A DNA stretch of 64,000 bases, from positions 62,001 to 126,000 of the forward strand of contig JAFXHE010000004.1 in NCBI GenBank assembly GCA_017536555.1, given 5' to 3'. Shown here piece by piece: positions 4,394 through 63,189 of this stretch. Position 1 is the stretch's first letter. Each line of letters begins with the position of its first letter. Made by a program: the position numbers and the translations under genes. Source of the DNA: Alistipes sp. (lineage in GTDB: Bacteria > Bacteroidota > Bacteroidia > Bacteroidales > Rikenellaceae). The notes under the pieces were generated by a model. It searched no databases. It was given only the letters and a program-made list of their open reading frames with translations, and was not told the origin of the DNA.

Positions 4394-5884
4394 ATGATTC
4401 ATTATATCAGTGCAGAGAGACTCACTATCGCTCGCGTTGCCGAGATTCTTCAGAAGGGTTATAAGTTGGCGCTAAGCGACGATGCCAAGGCTCGCATCAA
4501 CCACTGTCGTGAATACCTCGACAAGAAGATGGAGAACCGCGATAAGCCCATCTATGGTGTTACCACAGGCTTCGGCTCACTGTGCAACATCTCTGTTGAG
4601 AAGGAGCAGTTGTCGCAGTTGCAGAAGAACCTTATGATGTCGCACGCTTGCGGCACAGGTCAGCGCGTGCCCTCGGAGATTGCCCGCCTTATGATACTCC
4701 TAAAGGTGCAGTCACTCTCTTATGGTCATTCAGGCGTGCAGCTCATCACCGTAGAGCGTCTTATCGAGATGTTCAACAACAACATCATCCCCGTAGTATA
4801 TGAGCAGGGCTCATTGGGTGCATCGGGCGACTTGTCACCATTGGCACATATGTGCTTACCCCTGTTGGGCTTGGGTCACGTAGAGATTGACGGCGAGGTT
4901 GTCGAGGGTAAGGTAATGATGGAGAAGATGGGCTGGGAGCCTATCACACTATGCTCTAAAGAGGGTCTTGCACTATTGAACGGCACACAGTTTATGTCGG
5001 CTTATGGCGTCTACTCACTTATCAACGCACAGCGTTTGAGCCGCTGGGCAGACTACATCGGCGCAATGTCTCTCGATGCTTTCGATGGCAGAATGGATCC
5101 CTTTGAGCACAACGTTCACGCGATACGTCCTCACAACGGACAGATTGAGACCGCCAAGAACTTCCGCGAGCTGTTGGCAGGTAGCGAGATTGGTCAGCAG
5201 CCCAAGCAGCACGTGCAGGATCCCTACTCATTCCGCTGCATACCACAGGTACACGGTGCGTCGAAGGATACTATTGCATACGTAGCAAGCGTGCTCGAGA
5301 CCGAGATTAACTCCGCTACGGATAACCCCACAATCTTCCCAGATACCGACGAGGTTATCTCGGCGGGTAACTTCCACGGTCAGCCTATAGCCGTAGCTAT
5401 GGACTTCCTCGCCATTGGTGTTGCCGAGCTTGGTAACATCTCGGAGCGTCGTACATATAAGCTCATATCTGGCGCACGCAACCTTCCCCACTTCCTCGTG
5501 GCACATCCAGGTTTGAACAGTGGCTTTATGATTCCGCAGTACACAGCGGCCTCTATCGTGAGCCAGTCAAAGGGGTTGTGCTGGCCTGCTTCGTGCGACT
5601 CAATACCTTCGTCACAGGGTCAGGAGGATCACGTGAGTATGGGCTCGAATGCAGCTACCAAGCTATGGAGAGTTGTTCAGAACACCGAGCGTGTACTCGC
5701 CATCGAGCTTATGAACTCTGCACAGGCACTCCAGTTCCGCCATCCTATGCGCTCATCAGACAAGGTGGAGGCACTCTTCGAGGCTTACCGCAAGGTTGTT
5801 CCCTTTGTTGATGACGATATGGTGATGTATCCACATATCGCAACATCTGTTAAGTTCCTGAACGACTATGAGCCTGCTTGTTAA
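4394..5884 (+). CDS. hutH: Histidine ammonia-lyase
   Basis: A 496-residue lyase that deaminates L-histidine to urocanate, the first step of the pathway. The self-forming MIO cofactor triad Ala143-Ser144-Gly145 is present inside GSLGASGDLSPLAHM, as is the active-site loop YGVTTGFG near residue 55. Length is normal for bacterial HutH. The leader is A-rich (CACTAAAACTAAAAAC). The last 17 bases overlap the start of hutI, pointing to translational coupling. Confidence 0.97.
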   Translation: MIHYISAERLTIARVAEILQKGYKLALSDDAKARINHCREYLDKKMENRDKPIYGVTTGFGSLCNISVEKEQLSQLQKNLMMSHACGTGQRVPSEIARLMILLKVQSLSYGHSGVQLITVERLIEMFNNNIIPVVYEQGSLGASGDLSPLAHMCLPLLGLGHVEIDGEVVEGKVMMEKMGWEPITLCSKEGLALLNGTQFMSAYGVYSLINAQRLSRWADYIGAMSLDAFDGRMDPFEHNVHAIRPHNGQIETAKNFRELLAGSEIGQQPKQHVQDPYSFRCIPQVHGASKDTIAYVASVLETEINSATDNPTIFPDTDEVISAGNFHGQPIAVAMDFLAIGVAELGNISERRTYKLISGARNLPHFLVAHPGLNSGFMIPQYTAASIVSQSKGLCWPASCDSIPSSQGQEDHVSMGSNAATKLWRVVQNTERVLAIELMNSAQALQFRHPMRSSDKVEALFEAYRKVVPFVDDDMVMYPHIATSVKFLNDYEPAC

Positions 5885-58450: not shown

Positions 58451-59287
58451 ATGACAAGAGAGATTCTTCTTACCCTTGCCACATTCGTACTCACCTGTGC
58501 GACACAGGCGCAAGAGATCACCTCTGCCGCAGAGAGCAACACAGCCACCACAACACAGCTGTCTAATGACAATGATGACAAGTATAAGTGGGAATTTTGG
58601 TGGGGCGGCGGCTTCGACCTCGCCTCAAACTATATGTGGCGAGGCTTCGACCAGTCGTATCGTGGCGGCAATCGCACAATGCTCGACCCATCGTTGCAGC
58701 CAAGCGTGGCGTTTGGTTACGGCAAGTTCTACGTCGAGTTCTGGGGCAACGCCTCACTTATTAGCGACTATAAGGAGTTTGACATCTTCCTCGGCTTCGA
58801 GCACGAGAATCTGCTTATCACACTATACGATGTATTCTGTGGCGTAGGCAGCGACTTCAACAAGCCATTCTTCGATAAGCGTATGACTAACCATAGCCTC
58901 ACTGCTACTATCGACTACACACTCTTTGACCGCCTGCGCCTACACTGGGCAACAACCTTCCTGCACCCCGACGACTATATCGAGACGGGTAAGCGTACTG
59001 GCAAGCGTGCCTTCTCGTCATATTTCGAGATAGCATACACACAGCCTGTCAAAGATCTCTTCGACATTGAGATTTCGGCGGGTGCATCGCCTTGGACAGC
59101 CCCCTTCTGGTGCTTTGAGAACGATATGGAGAGCGTAGCCAAGGGCTTCAACGTAACCAACTTAAGCGTAATGCTTAACCGCGAATTTGAGATTGGCAAC
59201 GTGGCACTCCCCGTGCAGCTCGGTTATATTTATAACCCCACTACGCGCTACCACTACGCAATGCTTATCGCGGGCTTCTCGTTCTAA
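58451..59287 (+). CDS. Outer-membrane porin-like protein (TorF/Gcw_chp-like)
   Basis: A 278-residue exported protein (signal MTREILLTLATFVLTCATQAQ). The mature part has many short amphipathic strands, with FDLASNYMWRGFDQSY near the start recalling the SNYxxRG motif of TorF porins, and ends HYAMLIAGFSF, an aromatic C-terminal strand. No enzymatic motif. The 187-base gap from potD has a weak hairpin (CTCGGC / GCCGAG, 58364-58392) and no clear promoter, so read-through from pot is possible. Confidence 0.72.
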   Translation: MTREILLTLATFVLTCATQAQEITSAAESNTATTTQLSNDNDDKYKWEFWWGGGFDLASNYMWRGFDQSYRGGNRTMLDPSLQPSVAFGYGKFYVEFWGNASLISDYKEFDIFLGFEHENLLITLYDVFCGVGSDFNKPFFDKRMTNHSLTATIDYTLFDRLRLHWATTFLHPDDYIETGKRTGKRAFSSYFEIAYTQPVKDLFDIEISAGASPWTAPFWCFENDMESVAKGFNVTNLSVMLNREFEIGNVALPVQLGYIYNPTTRYHYAMLIAGFSF

Positions 59288-59337
59288 TAAGCAGGTAGTA
59301 CGCAGCGAGATAGCTCGACCAAACGAGCATAAACAAG

Positions 59338-59368
59338 TTAGGCTGTGTGAAGCAATCACACAGCCTAA
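59338..59368. terminator. Bidirectional terminator
   Basis: A 13-bp perfect stem (TTAGGCTGTGTGA / TCACACAGCCTAA) with a 5-base loop, between the porin and repressor genes. Confidence 0.88.
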
Positions 59369-59390
59369 TTTCGTATTTGGGCGCGGAGAA

Positions 59391-60071
59391 CTACCCTATC
59401 GTATGCATACGCACCGATGCCTTGATAAGTGCTATCGCCCTGATACGGCTCACCTCAACCTCCTTGTCGGCGTGGTGCTGATTTTGGCTCACAAGCCTTA
59501 CATAACCCTCGTGCTCCGACTTCTGGACATACTTAACTGTGATATACTCCTCGCCATCAATATCTATCGACAACAGGTACATATCTCCCCAGAAGATATC
59601 CTCAACATTGTTCAGCTGCTTGTATAACACAATATCGCCACTCTTCAGCAGCGGATACATCGAGTCGCCCACGACATATATCGCGCCGTCGCACTTCGGC
59701 AGGTTGGGTATGTGTATAAAGTTCACAGGCTTGACTGTCGATTGCTCTGCAAAGATAGGCACCAGACCCGCTGTTCCCTCAATCGAGTAGAGTGGCACCG
59801 ACTGTAGCGGTAGCGACTTGTCTGTTCGGTGCATAAATGCCGTCAAGTCGGGCTCTGCATTAAACATATTACCCCTACCCGTCTCAATCCAATCAGGGTT
59901 AAGATTAAAATCTTGAACAAGGATATTCTTATTGCGCATCGACAACCCTGCCTTACCTGTCTCAATCATCGAAAGCGCAGCCTTACCTATGCCAAGTCGT
60001 TGAGCAAGTTGGTCTTGCGTCATATTTAGCTGCTTGCGCATAAGCCTTAATCGTGAGCCAATCGTTTCCAT
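59391..60071 (-). CDS. Phage-type repressor: HTH plus S24 (LexA/CI-like) peptidase domain
   Basis: A 226-residue regulator. An XRE-type HTH fills about residues 5-60 (RLRLMRKQLNMTQDQLAQRLGIGKAALSMIETGK). The S24 domain (about 95-215) has a possible Ala-Gly cleavage site in EGTAGLVP, the nucleophile Ser in VVGDSMYPLLKSGD and the Lys in YITVKYVQ. All parts of a self-cleaving, DNA-damage-responsive repressor are present. It diverges from a small gene and a terminase, as in a phage switch, but no other phage genes follow. Confidence 0.9.
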   Translation of the reverse strand: METIGSRLRLMRKQLNMTQDQLAQRLGIGKAALSMIETGKAGLSMRNKNILVQDFNLNPDWIETGRGNMFNAEPDLTAFMHRTDKSLPLQSVPLYSIEGTAGLVPIFAEQSTVKPVNFIHIPNLPKCDGAIYVVGDSMYPLLKSGDIVLYKQLNNVEDIFWGDMYLLSIDIDGEEYITVKYVQKSEHEGYVRLVSQNQHHADKEVEVSRIRAIALIKASVRMHTIG

Positions 60072-60108
60072 ATAAAAATATTTTATAGTAAATTTTTGTA
60101 CTTTTCTA

Positions 60109-60139
60109 TTGACAGAGTAAATATTTGAACATATATTTG
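60109..60139 (+). promoter_or_regulatory. Promoter of the 96-aa/terminase unit
   Basis: TTG (60109-60111), 20 bases, TATATTTG (60132-60139), about 70 bases before the ATG. An inverted repeat AAATAT / ATATTT (60119-60138) covers its core. Confidence 0.65.
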
Positions 60140-60144
60140 CACTA

Positions 60145-60175
60145 CAAAGTTAAGCAATTTATATTAATTACCAAA
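60145..60175 (-). promoter_or_regulatory. Repressor promoter
   Basis: Minus strand: TTTG (60175-60172), 19 bases, TAACTTTG (60152-60145). The predicted start near 60138 lies inside the opposing promoter, so the two promoters face each other and cannot both be freely occupied. Confidence 0.75.
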
Positions 60176-60207
60176 ATTTTTATCAACAATTTTACACCAA
60201 ATGAACT

Positions 60208-60498
60208 ATGTACGAAATTTCACCTCAACTTTACCTTGAGATTGCCAACGCGCTATTGAGCGAAATAGGCACAGCCAACTTCTTCAGTGGCTCGATAAAT
60301 TTGACCCACCACGACATCTTTTGCAAGCTCATCTGCACCGTAATTGTCCGAAGAGAACGCACAATCGAGCCAGAGGATAGCCATCCCGCAGTGGAGCAAC
60401 TATGCGACGTATGGTGGGAGTTTCACACCACCGAGGGTGGCGAGGAGATATGTAACGACTTCTCGTTCAGCACACTCCAACAATACATTTATACCTAA
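60208..60498 (+). CDS. Hypothetical 96-residue protein of the phage-derived island
   Basis: I do not recognise this protein. It is acidic, soluble and without signal or membrane segment. Notable stretches are LYLEIANALLSEIGTANFFSGS, ICTVIVRRERTIEPED, EQLCDVWWEFHTTEGGEEICNDF. It could be a small phage regulator or packaging accessory (its position directly before a terminase large subunit would suit a small subunit), but no HTH is visible. Codon use is like its neighbours. Confidence 0.65.
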   Translation: MYEISPQLYLEIANALLSEIGTANFFSGSINLTHHDIFCKLICTVIVRRERTIEPEDSHPAVEQLCDVWWEFHTTEGGEEICNDFSFSTLQQYIYT

Positions 60499-60583
60499 CA
60501 ATCAACAACCTAAAACGTAAAAACCTAAAAACGTAAAACGTAAAAGCCTAAAACCTAAAATTAAATCCTAAAAAACTAAAACT
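60499..60583 (+). repeat. CCTAAAA/CGTAAAA-rich leader of the terminase gene
   Basis: The whole 85-base gap is built from short repeats: CCTAAAA at 60509, 60524, 60548, 60554 and 60568, with CGTAAAA between. It has almost no stable pairing. Similar but shorter CTAAAA clusters precede several genes in this window. Confidence 0.75.
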
Positions 60584-62014
60584 ATGCAAGTAGAGAAGAC
60601 AACAACTACAGGGTCGTTCATCGACTTCTCGATGGAGGTCTACCCCTTTTTGGAGATGACCGCATTTCATCGCACCTACTACACCATCTTGGAGAGCTTC
60701 GCACGTGGGCACATACGCAAGCTAATAGTATCTATGCCACCGCAGCACGGCAAGAGCGTGGGAGCGACAACACTACTACCAGCATATATGCTCGGACTAA
60801 ATCCCGATTTGCGCATAGCCATAGCATCATACTCGGGGACACTCGCCTCGAAGTTCAACCGCCGCGTACAGCGCATAATAGAGTCGCGCGAGTATGCCGC
60901 GATATTTCCCGAGACGACAATCAAGCGGGGCACGAAGCCTGCCAACTACATACGCACCTCGGACGAGGTTGAGATAATTGACCACCACGGCGAGCTACTA
61001 TCCGTAGGTCGTGAGGGGTCGCTCACAGGCAACCGCGTAGACTGCTTCATCCTCGACGACCTCTATAAAGATGCTATGGAGGCACAGTCGCCCATTGTGC
61101 GCGACAACTGCTGGGACTGGTACACCTCGGTAGTACGTACACGTATGCACAACACATCGCGCGAACTGATAGTATTCACGCGCTGGCACGAGGAGGATCT
61201 TATAGGTAGGCTGATGCGTACAGAGAGGTGCCGTATGCTAACCTCAATGAGAGATATAGAGAGCGTGGAGACAAACCAGTGGCTATACCTCAACTTCGAG
61301 GCACTTAAGGCTTCGGAGCCAACAGAGCTCGACCCTCGTGAACGCGGCGAGGCACTGTGGGAAGAGCAGCAGAGTGTCGAGCTACTCCAGAGCAAGCAAC
61401 GTCTCGACCCGCAACGCTTCGAGGCGATGTATCAGGGACACCCCACGTCGCGTGAGGGCTTGCTCTATGGCGATAACTTCCGCGAGTATGACACCCTGCC
61501 ACGCGACATTGTGGCGCGCGCAAGCTACACCGATACGGCAGACACAGGCAGCGACTATCTATGCTCCTATGCCTATGTCATTGACACCGACGGGGTGATA
61601 TATATAACAGATGTCGTCTACTCGCGCGAGCCTATGGAGCACACCGAGCGACTTGTTGCGGCAATGTTTATGAAGAATGACACGCGCCGCGCCTACATAG
61701 AGAGCAACAACGGCGGCAGGGGCTTCGCTCGCGCGCTGCAACGCCTCGCACCTCGCGTACACATAGAGTGGTTTCACCAGAGCGACAACAAGGAGGCGCG
61801 CATACTCTCCAACTCGGCAACGGTGCTACACAACGTGCGTATGCCCCGCGGCTGGCACCTGCGCTGGGCAGAGCTATACACACACCTGACGACCTACCGT
61901 CGACTATTTCGTGCAAACAGCCACGACGACGCAGCAGATGCTCTCACGGGCATCGTCGAGCGCGAAATATCTGTTGCCTCAAGTGGTAGATGGCAACGAG
62001 CACGCTTTATATAA
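60584..62014 (+). CDS. Phage terminase large subunit
   Basis: A 476-residue packaging motor with both halves. ATPase: Walker A in SMPPQHGKSVGATT, Walker B in DCFILDDLYKDA, coupling motif LIVFTRWHEEDLIGRL. Nuclease: RNase H-like acids in SYTDTADTG, AYIESNNGGRG and HDDAADALTG. All key motifs are complete, yet no portal, capsid, tail or integrase gene is in the window. Base and codon usage is like the host genes, implying a long stay. It is convergent with ubiX at 18 bases. Confidence 0.9.
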   Translation: MQVEKTTTTGSFIDFSMEVYPFLEMTAFHRTYYTILESFARGHIRKLIVSMPPQHGKSVGATTLLPAYMLGLNPDLRIAIASYSGTLASKFNRRVQRIIESREYAAIFPETTIKRGTKPANYIRTSDEVEIIDHHGELLSVGREGSLTGNRVDCFILDDLYKDAMEAQSPIVRDNCWDWYTSVVRTRMHNTSRELIVFTRWHEEDLIGRLMRTERCRMLTSMRDIESVETNQWLYLNFEALKASEPTELDPRERGEALWEEQQSVELLQSKQRLDPQRFEAMYQGHPTSREGLLYGDNFREYDTLPRDIVARASYTDTADTGSDYLCSYAYVIDTDGVIYITDVVYSREPMEHTERLVAAMFMKNDTRRAYIESNNGGRGFARALQRLAPRVHIEWFHQSDNKEARILSNSATVLHNVRMPRGWHLRWAELYTHLTTYRRLFRANSHDDAADALTGIVEREISVASSGRWQRARFI

Positions 62015-62032
62015 CATTTTACTTTAGTGGAG

Positions 62033-62581
62033 TTATTCGCCCCACGCGCGGTGACTGACACTTACGCCCGCCATCTCGACAACACGCATAACGAGCGTCA
62101 TCGTAAGCTCGTCTATAGACGAGGGGTTGAAGTAGAATGAGGGTGATGCGGGCATAATGACAGCACCAGCCTCGGTAAGTGTAGTCATATTGCGTAGATG
62201 AACAAGCGAGTAGGGGCTTTCGCGCACAACCATAACAAGCGGTCTTCGCTCCTTGAGCATAACATCGGCAGCACGCTCGATGAGTGTCTGCGACACACCC
62301 GCCGCCACACGTCCCACCGTACCCATAGAGGCAGGCACGACAATCATAGCATCCCAACGTGCCGAGCCACTCGCCACAGACGACCACATATTGTCGTTGG
62401 CATAGCGTTCCACGCGCTCACACTGCGGCAGCTCAACACCCTCGGCGCGCAACACATCTTCAGCCGATGAGCTTAATATAAGGGCGATGCGCTCCACCTC
62501 GCTTGAGGCGGCAAGCACCTCAAGTGTCTGGCGCGCATATATAGCACCGCTGGCTCCTGTTATGGCAACTATGATATTCAT
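62033..62581 (-). CDS. ubiX: Flavin prenyltransferase UbiX
   Basis: A 182-residue flavoprotein that makes prenylated FMN, the cofactor of UbiD-type decarboxylases. NIIVAITGASGAIYARQTLEVL is the start, SGSARWDAMIVVPASMGTVGRVAAG the FMN loop, and RRPLVMVVRESPYSLVHLRNMTTL the later hallmark. Length is normal. Its ATG overlaps the stop of the deacetylase gene by one base. No ubiD is in this window. Confidence 0.95.
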   Translation of the reverse strand: MNIIVAITGASGAIYARQTLEVLAASSEVERIALILSSSAEDVLRAEGVELPQCERVERYANDNMWSSVASGSARWDAMIVVPASMGTVGRVAAGVSQTLIERAADVMLKERRPLVMVVRESPYSLVHLRNMTTLTEAGAVIMPASPSFYFNPSSIDELTMTLVMRVVEMAGVSVSHRAWGE

Positions 62582-63189
62582 TATAGTTCAAGTATCTTGC
62601 ACTCCAAGCCGCGCTCGCGCACGTGGCGCAGTAGCTGCGGCAGGACGTAGCTGGTATTACGGAACGACTTTGCGCTGTCGTGCAGCGAGATGATATCGCC
62701 AGCCCTTAAATCACGAATTGTACCTTGCAGGCATCGCTTGGGCGAGAGGCTGCGGTTATAGTCGCGCGAAAGCACGCTCCACATAACAACCCTGAAACGC
62801 TTTGCCACCTCGCGCAGTTGTGCGCGTGTTATCTGCGCGTAGGGCGGTCTAAACAGCTCGGAATGTACCATATCGGCAGCAAGGTCGACATCCTCGACAT
62901 ATCTATCCAACGACATAGTCCACCCCTTCTGGTGCGAATAGGTGTGGTTACCCACCTTATGTCCGCGCTCAAGTATCATCTGGTAGAGGTCGGGGTATAA
63001 CTCGACATTCTTGCCCAGCACAAAGAAGGTAGCCTTGGCGTTATATCTATCCAACATATTGAGTATCCACTCCGTAACACCAGGCGTAGGGCCATCGTCA
63101 AAGGTGAGATATACACCTTCGTCATCCTCCACGCGCCATATCATCTCGGGGTAGAGCCTCTTAACTATTTTGGGCGGGTCTATACGCAT
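62581..63189 (-). CDS. Polysaccharide deacetylase (NodB-type)
   Basis: A 202-residue metal-dependent deacetylase with the NodB motifs: YLTFDDGPTPGVTEW (Asp-Asp), VGNHTYSHQKGW (His-x3-His), and LFRPPYAQI (Arg-Pro-Pro-Tyr). IISLHDSAK is motif 5. There is no signal peptide, so a cytoplasmic or unconventionally exported role is implied; it may act on peptidoglycan or another N-acetylated sugar. It precedes ubiX, overlapping it by one base. Confidence 0.9.
   Translation of the reverse strand: MRIDPPKIVKRLYPEMIWRVEDDEGVYLTFDDGPTPGVTEWILNMLDRYNAKATFFVLGKNVELYPDLYQMILERGHKVGNHTYSHQKGWTMSLDRYVEDVDLAADMVHSELFRPPYAQITRAQLREVAKRFRVVMWSVLSRDYNRSLSPKRCLQGTIRDLRAGDIISLHDSAKSFRNTSYVLPQLLRHVRERGLECKILEL

Follow-up and report, generated by a model that had tools for sequence, protein, structure and literature searches.

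The window is the whole stretch of DNA that was analysed, 64,000 nucleotides (64 kb) of an Alistipes genome. Three of its genes, an S24 repressor, a 96-residue protein (P96) and a large terminase (TerL), form the locus studied here, which we call the trio. All three open reading frames of the original prediction were confirmed at their coordinates, and the locus reads as follows.

59335..59371, no strand: inverted repeat resembling a terminator, with the porin-like gene on one side and the repressor on the other
59391..60071, minus strand: repressor of S24/CI type, 226 aa, carrying self-cleavage residues; divergent from P96 and TerL
60072..60207, plus strand: control region common to both directions, containing a promoter-like box (TATATTTG) and, conserved among relatives, a CAAAGTTAA element
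60208..60498, plus strand: P96, a 96-aa protein of unknown family with an alpha-beta-alpha model
60499..60583, plus strand: AT-rich spacer from P96 to TerL, with CCTAAAA/CGTAAAA repeats
60584..62014, plus strand: large terminase TerL, 476 aa, with intact ATPase and RNase H-like nuclease residues

The original prediction placed a porin and a terminator on one side of the trio and ubiX on the other. The terminator is present as the inverted repeat listed above, the supposed porin is an outer-membrane-like protein that has no Pfam match, and the gene on the far side belongs to the Flavoprotein family (PF02441), as ubiX would. GC content is host-like (0.499 for the trio vs 0.509 for the window), and the third-position GC of TerL is 0.65, while two genes next to the trio have 0.64 and 0.67. 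Between positions 58900 and 62700, direct repeats are confined to the P96-TerL spacer and none of att type (14 nt or longer) was reported, and reading of the genes beside the trio revealed no integrase. The flanks differ from subgroup to subgroup (35 of 38 loci compared; three were lost in gene calling), and the 20 neighbouring gene clusters look host-like by reading. No full prophage was seen at the same site in relatives.

The repressor matches PF00717 (E 4e-13), PF12844 (2.6e-12) and phrog_4 (1.4e-33). It was predicted to have complete self-cleavage residues, and we find a cleavage pair, A101-G102, together with catalytic S137 and K180, which we take to be the relevant positions by analogy with S24 motifs. 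In an alignment to which, outside the genus, only homologues at E<=1e-50 were added, these four letters are shared by 126/130, 130/130, 125/129 and 127/129 sequences, respectively. In the control region, the CAAAGTTAA element lies at about 60132-60153, just 3' of the TATATTTG box, presumably a promoter of the Bacteroidetes type. The 8-mers AAAGTTAA and CAAAGTTA occur in 83 and 81 of 85 repressor-P96 intergenic regions (90-210 nt, either strand), and the pattern TAnnTTTG-N3-9-CAAAGTTAA occurs once in the 64-kb window, in the control region of the trio. The CAAAGTTAA element is described here as a candidate repressor operator.

TerL matches phrog_38 (3.1e-94), exceeds the cut-offs of PF03237, PF22530 and TIGR01630, and has a weak match among PDB sequences (8dgc, E 0.0011). 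The predicted complete ATPase and nuclease motifs are confirmed in that the Walker and nuclease residues are present. Eight residues, which we presume to be the catalytic ones from general terminase motifs (K57, D158, D159, D317, D320, E373, D449 and D452), are invariant in complete copies (139 rows; five phage-like rows were excluded beforehand). Gaps at these positions in L146, L147 and L153 probably reflect over-trimmed rows, and the other departures fall at a contig end (L066), at one masked letter (L068) and in damaged copies (L203, L230, L239).

No family of Pfam, PHROGs, NCBIfam or PADLOC matched P96. The protein is predicted to be a small alpha-beta-alpha protein (mean pLDDT 93.3); the model has no PDB match at E<=0.001, and a sequence search of the PDB returned none. 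A single-protein scan of viral contigs confirmed no relative. One phage relative sits in a phage contig between exonuclease-like and RecT-like genes, the former presumably YqaJ-like, both names being our assignment from the sequences. We considered that P96 might be the small terminase. This is unsupported, given that the model has no PDB match and that the single phage relative stands in a recombination-type operon. The position of that relative leads us to guess that P96 is an accessory of packaging or DNA processing.

Conservation of the trio in the Rikenellaceae

Among Alistipes genomes, TerL is present in 169 of 180 (68 of the 70 good ones), and in the family Rikenellaceae it is present in 106 of 120 genomes (70 of the 72 good ones), covering 18 of 22 genera. 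It was found in none of 24 genomes from other families of the order, sampled at one genome per family. Public records of TerL, 80 among the matches listed, are titled Alistipes, Rikenellaceae or Tidjanibacter, with one titled Bacteroidaceae. P96 occurs in 166 of the 180 genus genomes (66 of the 70 good ones) and in three of 247 genomes of the order, all three Rikenellaceae.

There are 104 distinct TerL loci, and the gene-order count is based on the 98 for which 1.5 kb or more of upstream sequence was available. Divergent repressor, P96 and TerL stand in order at 91 of these, which rules out a chance arrangement. The seven off-pattern loci are three phage-like contigs (L064, L065, L067), three in which no repressor was found (L144, L145, L150), and L053, which has all members of the trio with an over-long P96 frame. 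The distance from the P96 stop to TerL varies among relatives, from 2 to 331 nt (90 loci).

For the eight closest pairs (Nei-Gojobori), dN/dS is 0.03-0.07 for the repressor, 0.05-0.12 for TerL and 0.08-0.37 for P96; the medians over all pairs with dS 0.05-1.2 are higher, at 0.10 (689 pairs), 0.18 (697 pairs) and 0.37 (255 pairs). The closest-pair values are far below the 1 expected of a plain remnant. P96 evolves fast, with 27-55% identity to the copy of the window where BLAST matched. Nearly all TerL copies are open among the matches listed, and a few broken ones exist: TerL is split in two pieces in G069, G463 and G487, and also in G008, where letters are masked, and carries stops in G430, G431 and G140.

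Head genes at a second site

It had been stated that nothing else from a phage is present. This holds beside the trio and fails genome-wide, as the assembly has head genes on a different contig. Their identification relied on deeper genera, two of which have a trio-type terminase followed by capsid-like, portal and connector genes. In G438 (L208), a single run comprises a divergent repressor, a P96-like gene (78 aa, recognised by eye), an 88-aa gene, TerL, a ClpP-type protease, a capsid-like gene, a portal and a connector; in G432 and G450, TerL likewise stays near head genes. Using a profile built from three portals of deeper genera, we found a portal in 101 of the 120 family genomes (68 of the 72 good ones), usually apart from TerL.

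In the window's own genome the portal lies at C16:37543-38655. It is part of a second island (C16:36258-44116) that encodes a 322-aa and a 774-aa protein, a protease, a capsid-like protein, the portal, a connector, a holin and an endolysin, between genes read as release factor 1 and PEP carboxykinase. Across 19 family portal loci, capsid-like protein and portal are present in all 19, the connector in 19 by clustering, and the protease in 15 by direct match. No phage replication or integration genes were recognised near the trio or the head island by reading of neighbours.

The protease of this genome matches phrog_94 (1.2e-36), and its portal matches phrog_11226 (1.5e-19), with PF04860 below threshold. 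Its capsid-like protein matches phrog_11320 (3.6e-12), a family whose function is unknown, and among PDB sequences has a chance-level match only (E 0.2); the L327 copy matches the capsid families phrog_1623 (3.4e-8) and phrog_212 (5.6e-4). On the basis of these matches of a homologue and of gene order, we regard the protein as a putative capsid. For the lysis genes, the L324 copy of the holin matches PF05105 (6.9e-11) and the L277 copy of the endolysin-like protein matches phrog_873 (2e-47). Median dN/dS is 0.38 for the capsid-like protein (32 pairs) and 0.54 for the 774-aa protein (18 pairs), with gene starts loosely called.

Common portal and capsid families are infrequent in the genus: among 36 genomes (the window's own and 35 at least 95% complete), PF05133 occurs in three and PF05065 in eight, and phrog_7376 in none, in a search that matched nothing, controls included. 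We had treated the scarcity of such families as an argument against a gene transfer agent (GTA), which was overturned by the divergent portal and capsid-like protein of the deeper genera.

The tail region is less clear. The nearest phage terminase, 60% identical to TerL, lies in a prophage-like region (L065) of G006, a genome whose trio-type TerL is on a different contig. Beside the L065 terminase stands a small one (phrog_51), and after it come relatives of T257, T137, T320 and T774 (E 4e-18, 3e-4, 0.002 and 2e-26), with a tape measure (phrog_167) downstream. L065 resembles the trio system in its terminase and in these genes, and differs from it in being a contiguous set of phage-type genes with small terminase and tape measure. 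The 322-aa and 774-aa proteins of the head island have no family match. We call them tail-region-like because their relatives (E 0.002 and 2e-26) precede the tape measure in L065, a tie that is weak for the 322-aa protein. A conserved tape measure was not found in 60 family genomes, nine of which gave short or prophage-like matches to the L065 type, and in Alistipes we recognised no small terminase. The particle may therefore be short-tailed, or its remaining parts may be encoded at other loci.

TerL and portal tend to occur together. Of the 120 family genomes, 100 have both, six TerL only, one the portal only and 13 neither. For instance, all eight sampled genomes of genera g175, g183, g185 and g194 lack both, and G167 and G199 have TerL with no portal match. 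In the single-contig genome G177, TerL (at 3,272,256) and the portal (at 1,255,239) are about 2 Mb apart, the distance is 9-19 kb in G451, G477, G482 and G392, and in many other family genomes the two are on different contigs. Protein distances correlate across 22 genomes (rho 0.62 for TerL-portal, 0.39 for TerL-capsid-like and 0.42 for portal-capsid-like), and none of 2000 permutations gave correlations as high. The 22 TerLs, together with contig L064, fall on one side of a branch with support 100/99.

Both operons of the window's own genome have promoters similar to TTGACA-N17-TATATT, and a promoter-like sequence is present at the head operon in 12 of 13 loci searched. An operator common to the two was looked for and not found: none of 20 loci showed the CAAAGTTAA element of the trio 5' of the head operon. 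Because of this, common control of the trio and the head operon remains putative.

A putative gene transfer agent and its alternatives

We think it likely that the trio serves as the locus for control and motor in a GTA-type system, domesticated from a phage, that is split over the chromosome and vertically inherited in the Rikenellaceae. The genes retained include phage-type packaging and head genes (TerL, portal, capsid-like protein, protease), which the host lineage appears to keep by vertical descent under purifying selection, and the operons are dispersed over the host chromosome, to use the wording of PMC12946183. As for a delivery device, the two tail-region-like proteins are kept and no conserved tape measure was found in the 60 family genomes searched. 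The system is GTA-like in that genes for packaging (TerL), head (portal, capsid-like protein, protease) and lysis seem to be inherited vertically, with no phage replication genes recognised among the neighbours read. The original prediction had offered domestication and a DNA-transfer role among its options, and the sequences favour both: the genes occur in most of the family, are under purifying selection and are matched by a head locus that these genomes carry elsewhere. Weighing against the GTA reading are the damaged TerL copies, the four genera whose sampled genomes lack both loci, the higher dN/dS medians, the weak tie of the 322-aa protein to a tail region, the failure to see the CAAAGTTAA element at the head operon, and the failure to find a conserved tape measure or, in Alistipes, a small terminase.

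In the mechanism that we propose, the S24 repressor would keep P96 and TerL off until DNA damage triggers its self-cleavage. TerL would then dock on the portal made by the head locus and fill capsids with host DNA, which we infer because there is no phage genome there to package. P96 would assist packaging or DNA processing, and the holin and endolysin would free the particles.

Among the alternatives, we consider it unlikely that the genes serve the host as a weapon or defence against phages, through packaging interference, nuclease action or altruistic death with the holin, and not in DNA movement. A self-cleaving repressor adjoining TerL, the fast evolution of P96 and the missing tape measure would all suit such a role. 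However, P96 and TerL have no PADLOC match at E<=1, the repressor matches PADLOC only via its HTH part, and the retained portal, capsid-like protein, maturation protease, connector and TerL suit DNA packaging better than nuclease action.

It seems very unlikely that TerL and the repressor took on a new role in processing or repairing the chromosome, with no connection to the head island. The separate operons, for which no common operator was found, and the YqaJ-like and RecT-like neighbours of the P96 relative agree with this reading, but TerL and portal are jointly present or absent in 113 of 120 genomes (a raw count that ignores kinship and missing contigs) and lie close together in deeper genera.

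Highly improbable, in our estimate, is that the two loci are slowly decaying remnants of a dead prophage, with TerL and head genes left over. Some TerL copies do have stops or are in pieces, and tape measure and small terminase seem lost. However, TerL is kept throughout most of the genus and family and is nearly always open among the matches listed, its catalytic residues are invariant in complete copies, the closest pairs show the low dN/dS given above, and independent leftovers would not retain a single lineage of terminase and a single type of portal in the same genomes. The suggestion of a deletion too recent to show is disfavoured by the separation of TerL and head genes in much of the family. 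Nor is this an intact prophage with contiguous replication, lysogeny, head and tail genes, as the trio stands between host genes and the head island is on another contig.

Phage satellites can carry small islands of repressor and terminase, so the trio was also proposed to be satellite-like, but we give almost no credence to a satellite or capsid-stealing element relying on a helper phage, since reading of the genes nearby showed no integrase or replication gene, no att-type repeat was reported in 58900-62700, inheritance follows the family and looks vertical, and a capsid locus is already present in the host genome. In sum, the trio is unlikely to be a satellite or a recent remnant.

For the GTA-type system, we lean slightly towards a broader view, namely that a GTA of Bacteroidota is ancestral to the Rikenellaceae, is built from unlinked loci and has its motor alone behind a DNA-damage-cleavable repressor, and that isolated portal islands of a second, distinct lineage, in a different family of the Bacteroidales, would make this a widespread mode of gene flow in the order. 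Alistipes and Rikenellaceae are common gut bacteria. If the system works as a GTA, a whole family would swap chromosomal DNA packed into virus-like shells, with DNA damage as the switch, and split GTAs of this kind would escape prophage finders that seek contiguous clusters.

Relatives among phages and known gene transfer agents

Gene transfer agents already known include RcGTA, CcGTA and BaGTA. GTAs have dispersed operons and no replication machinery, and their terminases are able to package random cellular DNA, according to PMC12946183. The Rikenellaceae system, known from genes alone, resembles these agents and the FpGTA of Faecalibacterium (PMC12946183) in having phage head and packaging genes kept by the host, its own TerL, more than one locus and no recognised replication genes. 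It differs in belonging to another phylum and descending from another ancestor, in having a motor locus that is apart from the head locus and faces a self-cleavage S24 repressor, and in that no tape measure or small terminase was found.

No described GTA of Rikenellaceae or Bacteroidota emerged from a literature search covering few subscription papers, and PMC7947584 has a table listing Salinibacter viruses. Alistipes is absent from the text of PMC12946183. The same text places Rikenellaceae among the most abundant families of total gut DNA and reports that other families dominate the particle fractions, a difference that was not significant. We counted this against the GTA reading.

The terminases of the Bacteroides phage B40-8 group are 47% identical to TerL; these phages differ from the trio system in having a full genome, with a portal of family phrog_7376.

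Virus catalogues hold short contigs that resemble the host head islands (L321, L322, L324, L327 and L328, the five whose context was read); three further contigs (L323, L325, L326) also matched.

Leader of the head operon

The head operon of the genome itself (in the island with two tail-region-like proteins, protease, capsid-like protein, portal, connector, holin and endolysin) is preceded by a long, AT-rich leader, as it is at six other loci (L281-L286):

C16:44117-44516 (locus L301), leader of the head operon

The leaders have boxes similar to TTATCAACA, which resemble DnaA boxes; the genome itself shows two in 420 nt here, whereas their density across the window is 0.11 per kb. At 12 of the 13 loci searched, the head operon carries a promoter-like sequence, TTGACA-N17-TATATTTG.

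P96, its spacer and the neighboring repressor

window:60504-60549, CCTAAAA/CGTAAAA repeats between the genes for P96 (the 96-residue protein) and the large terminase, TerL
L187 (MT837081.1) 5126-5419, P96 relative in a faecal phage contig

The spacer that holds the repeats measures 2-331 nt in relatives (90 loci). The phage-borne P96 relative lies between genes that we presume to be YqaJ-like on one side and RecT-like on the other. At two loci of genus g192 (L212 and L223), P96 was not detected and the TerL-adjacent repressor is divergent; in L223, a glycine seems by eye to replace the catalytic serine.

Portal and head-gene islands in other genomes

The portal occurs in 25 of 61 genomes of another Bacteroidales family, f20, including 17/18 in genus g20, 5/5 in g126 and 0/21 in g198. 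Among the copies listed, four carry one stop each. The portal and connector genes of this family may represent a second domesticated system.

In the two f20 loci whose context was read (L305 and L306; genomes G312 and G055), isolated portal and connector genes sit amid host-looking genes.

Small islands of protease-, capsid-, portal- and connector-like genes, surrounded by mostly host-looking genes, were also seen in genomes G337 (L302) and G351, which holds two (L303 and L304); their terminase-like genes, named like the others by reading, are of another type.
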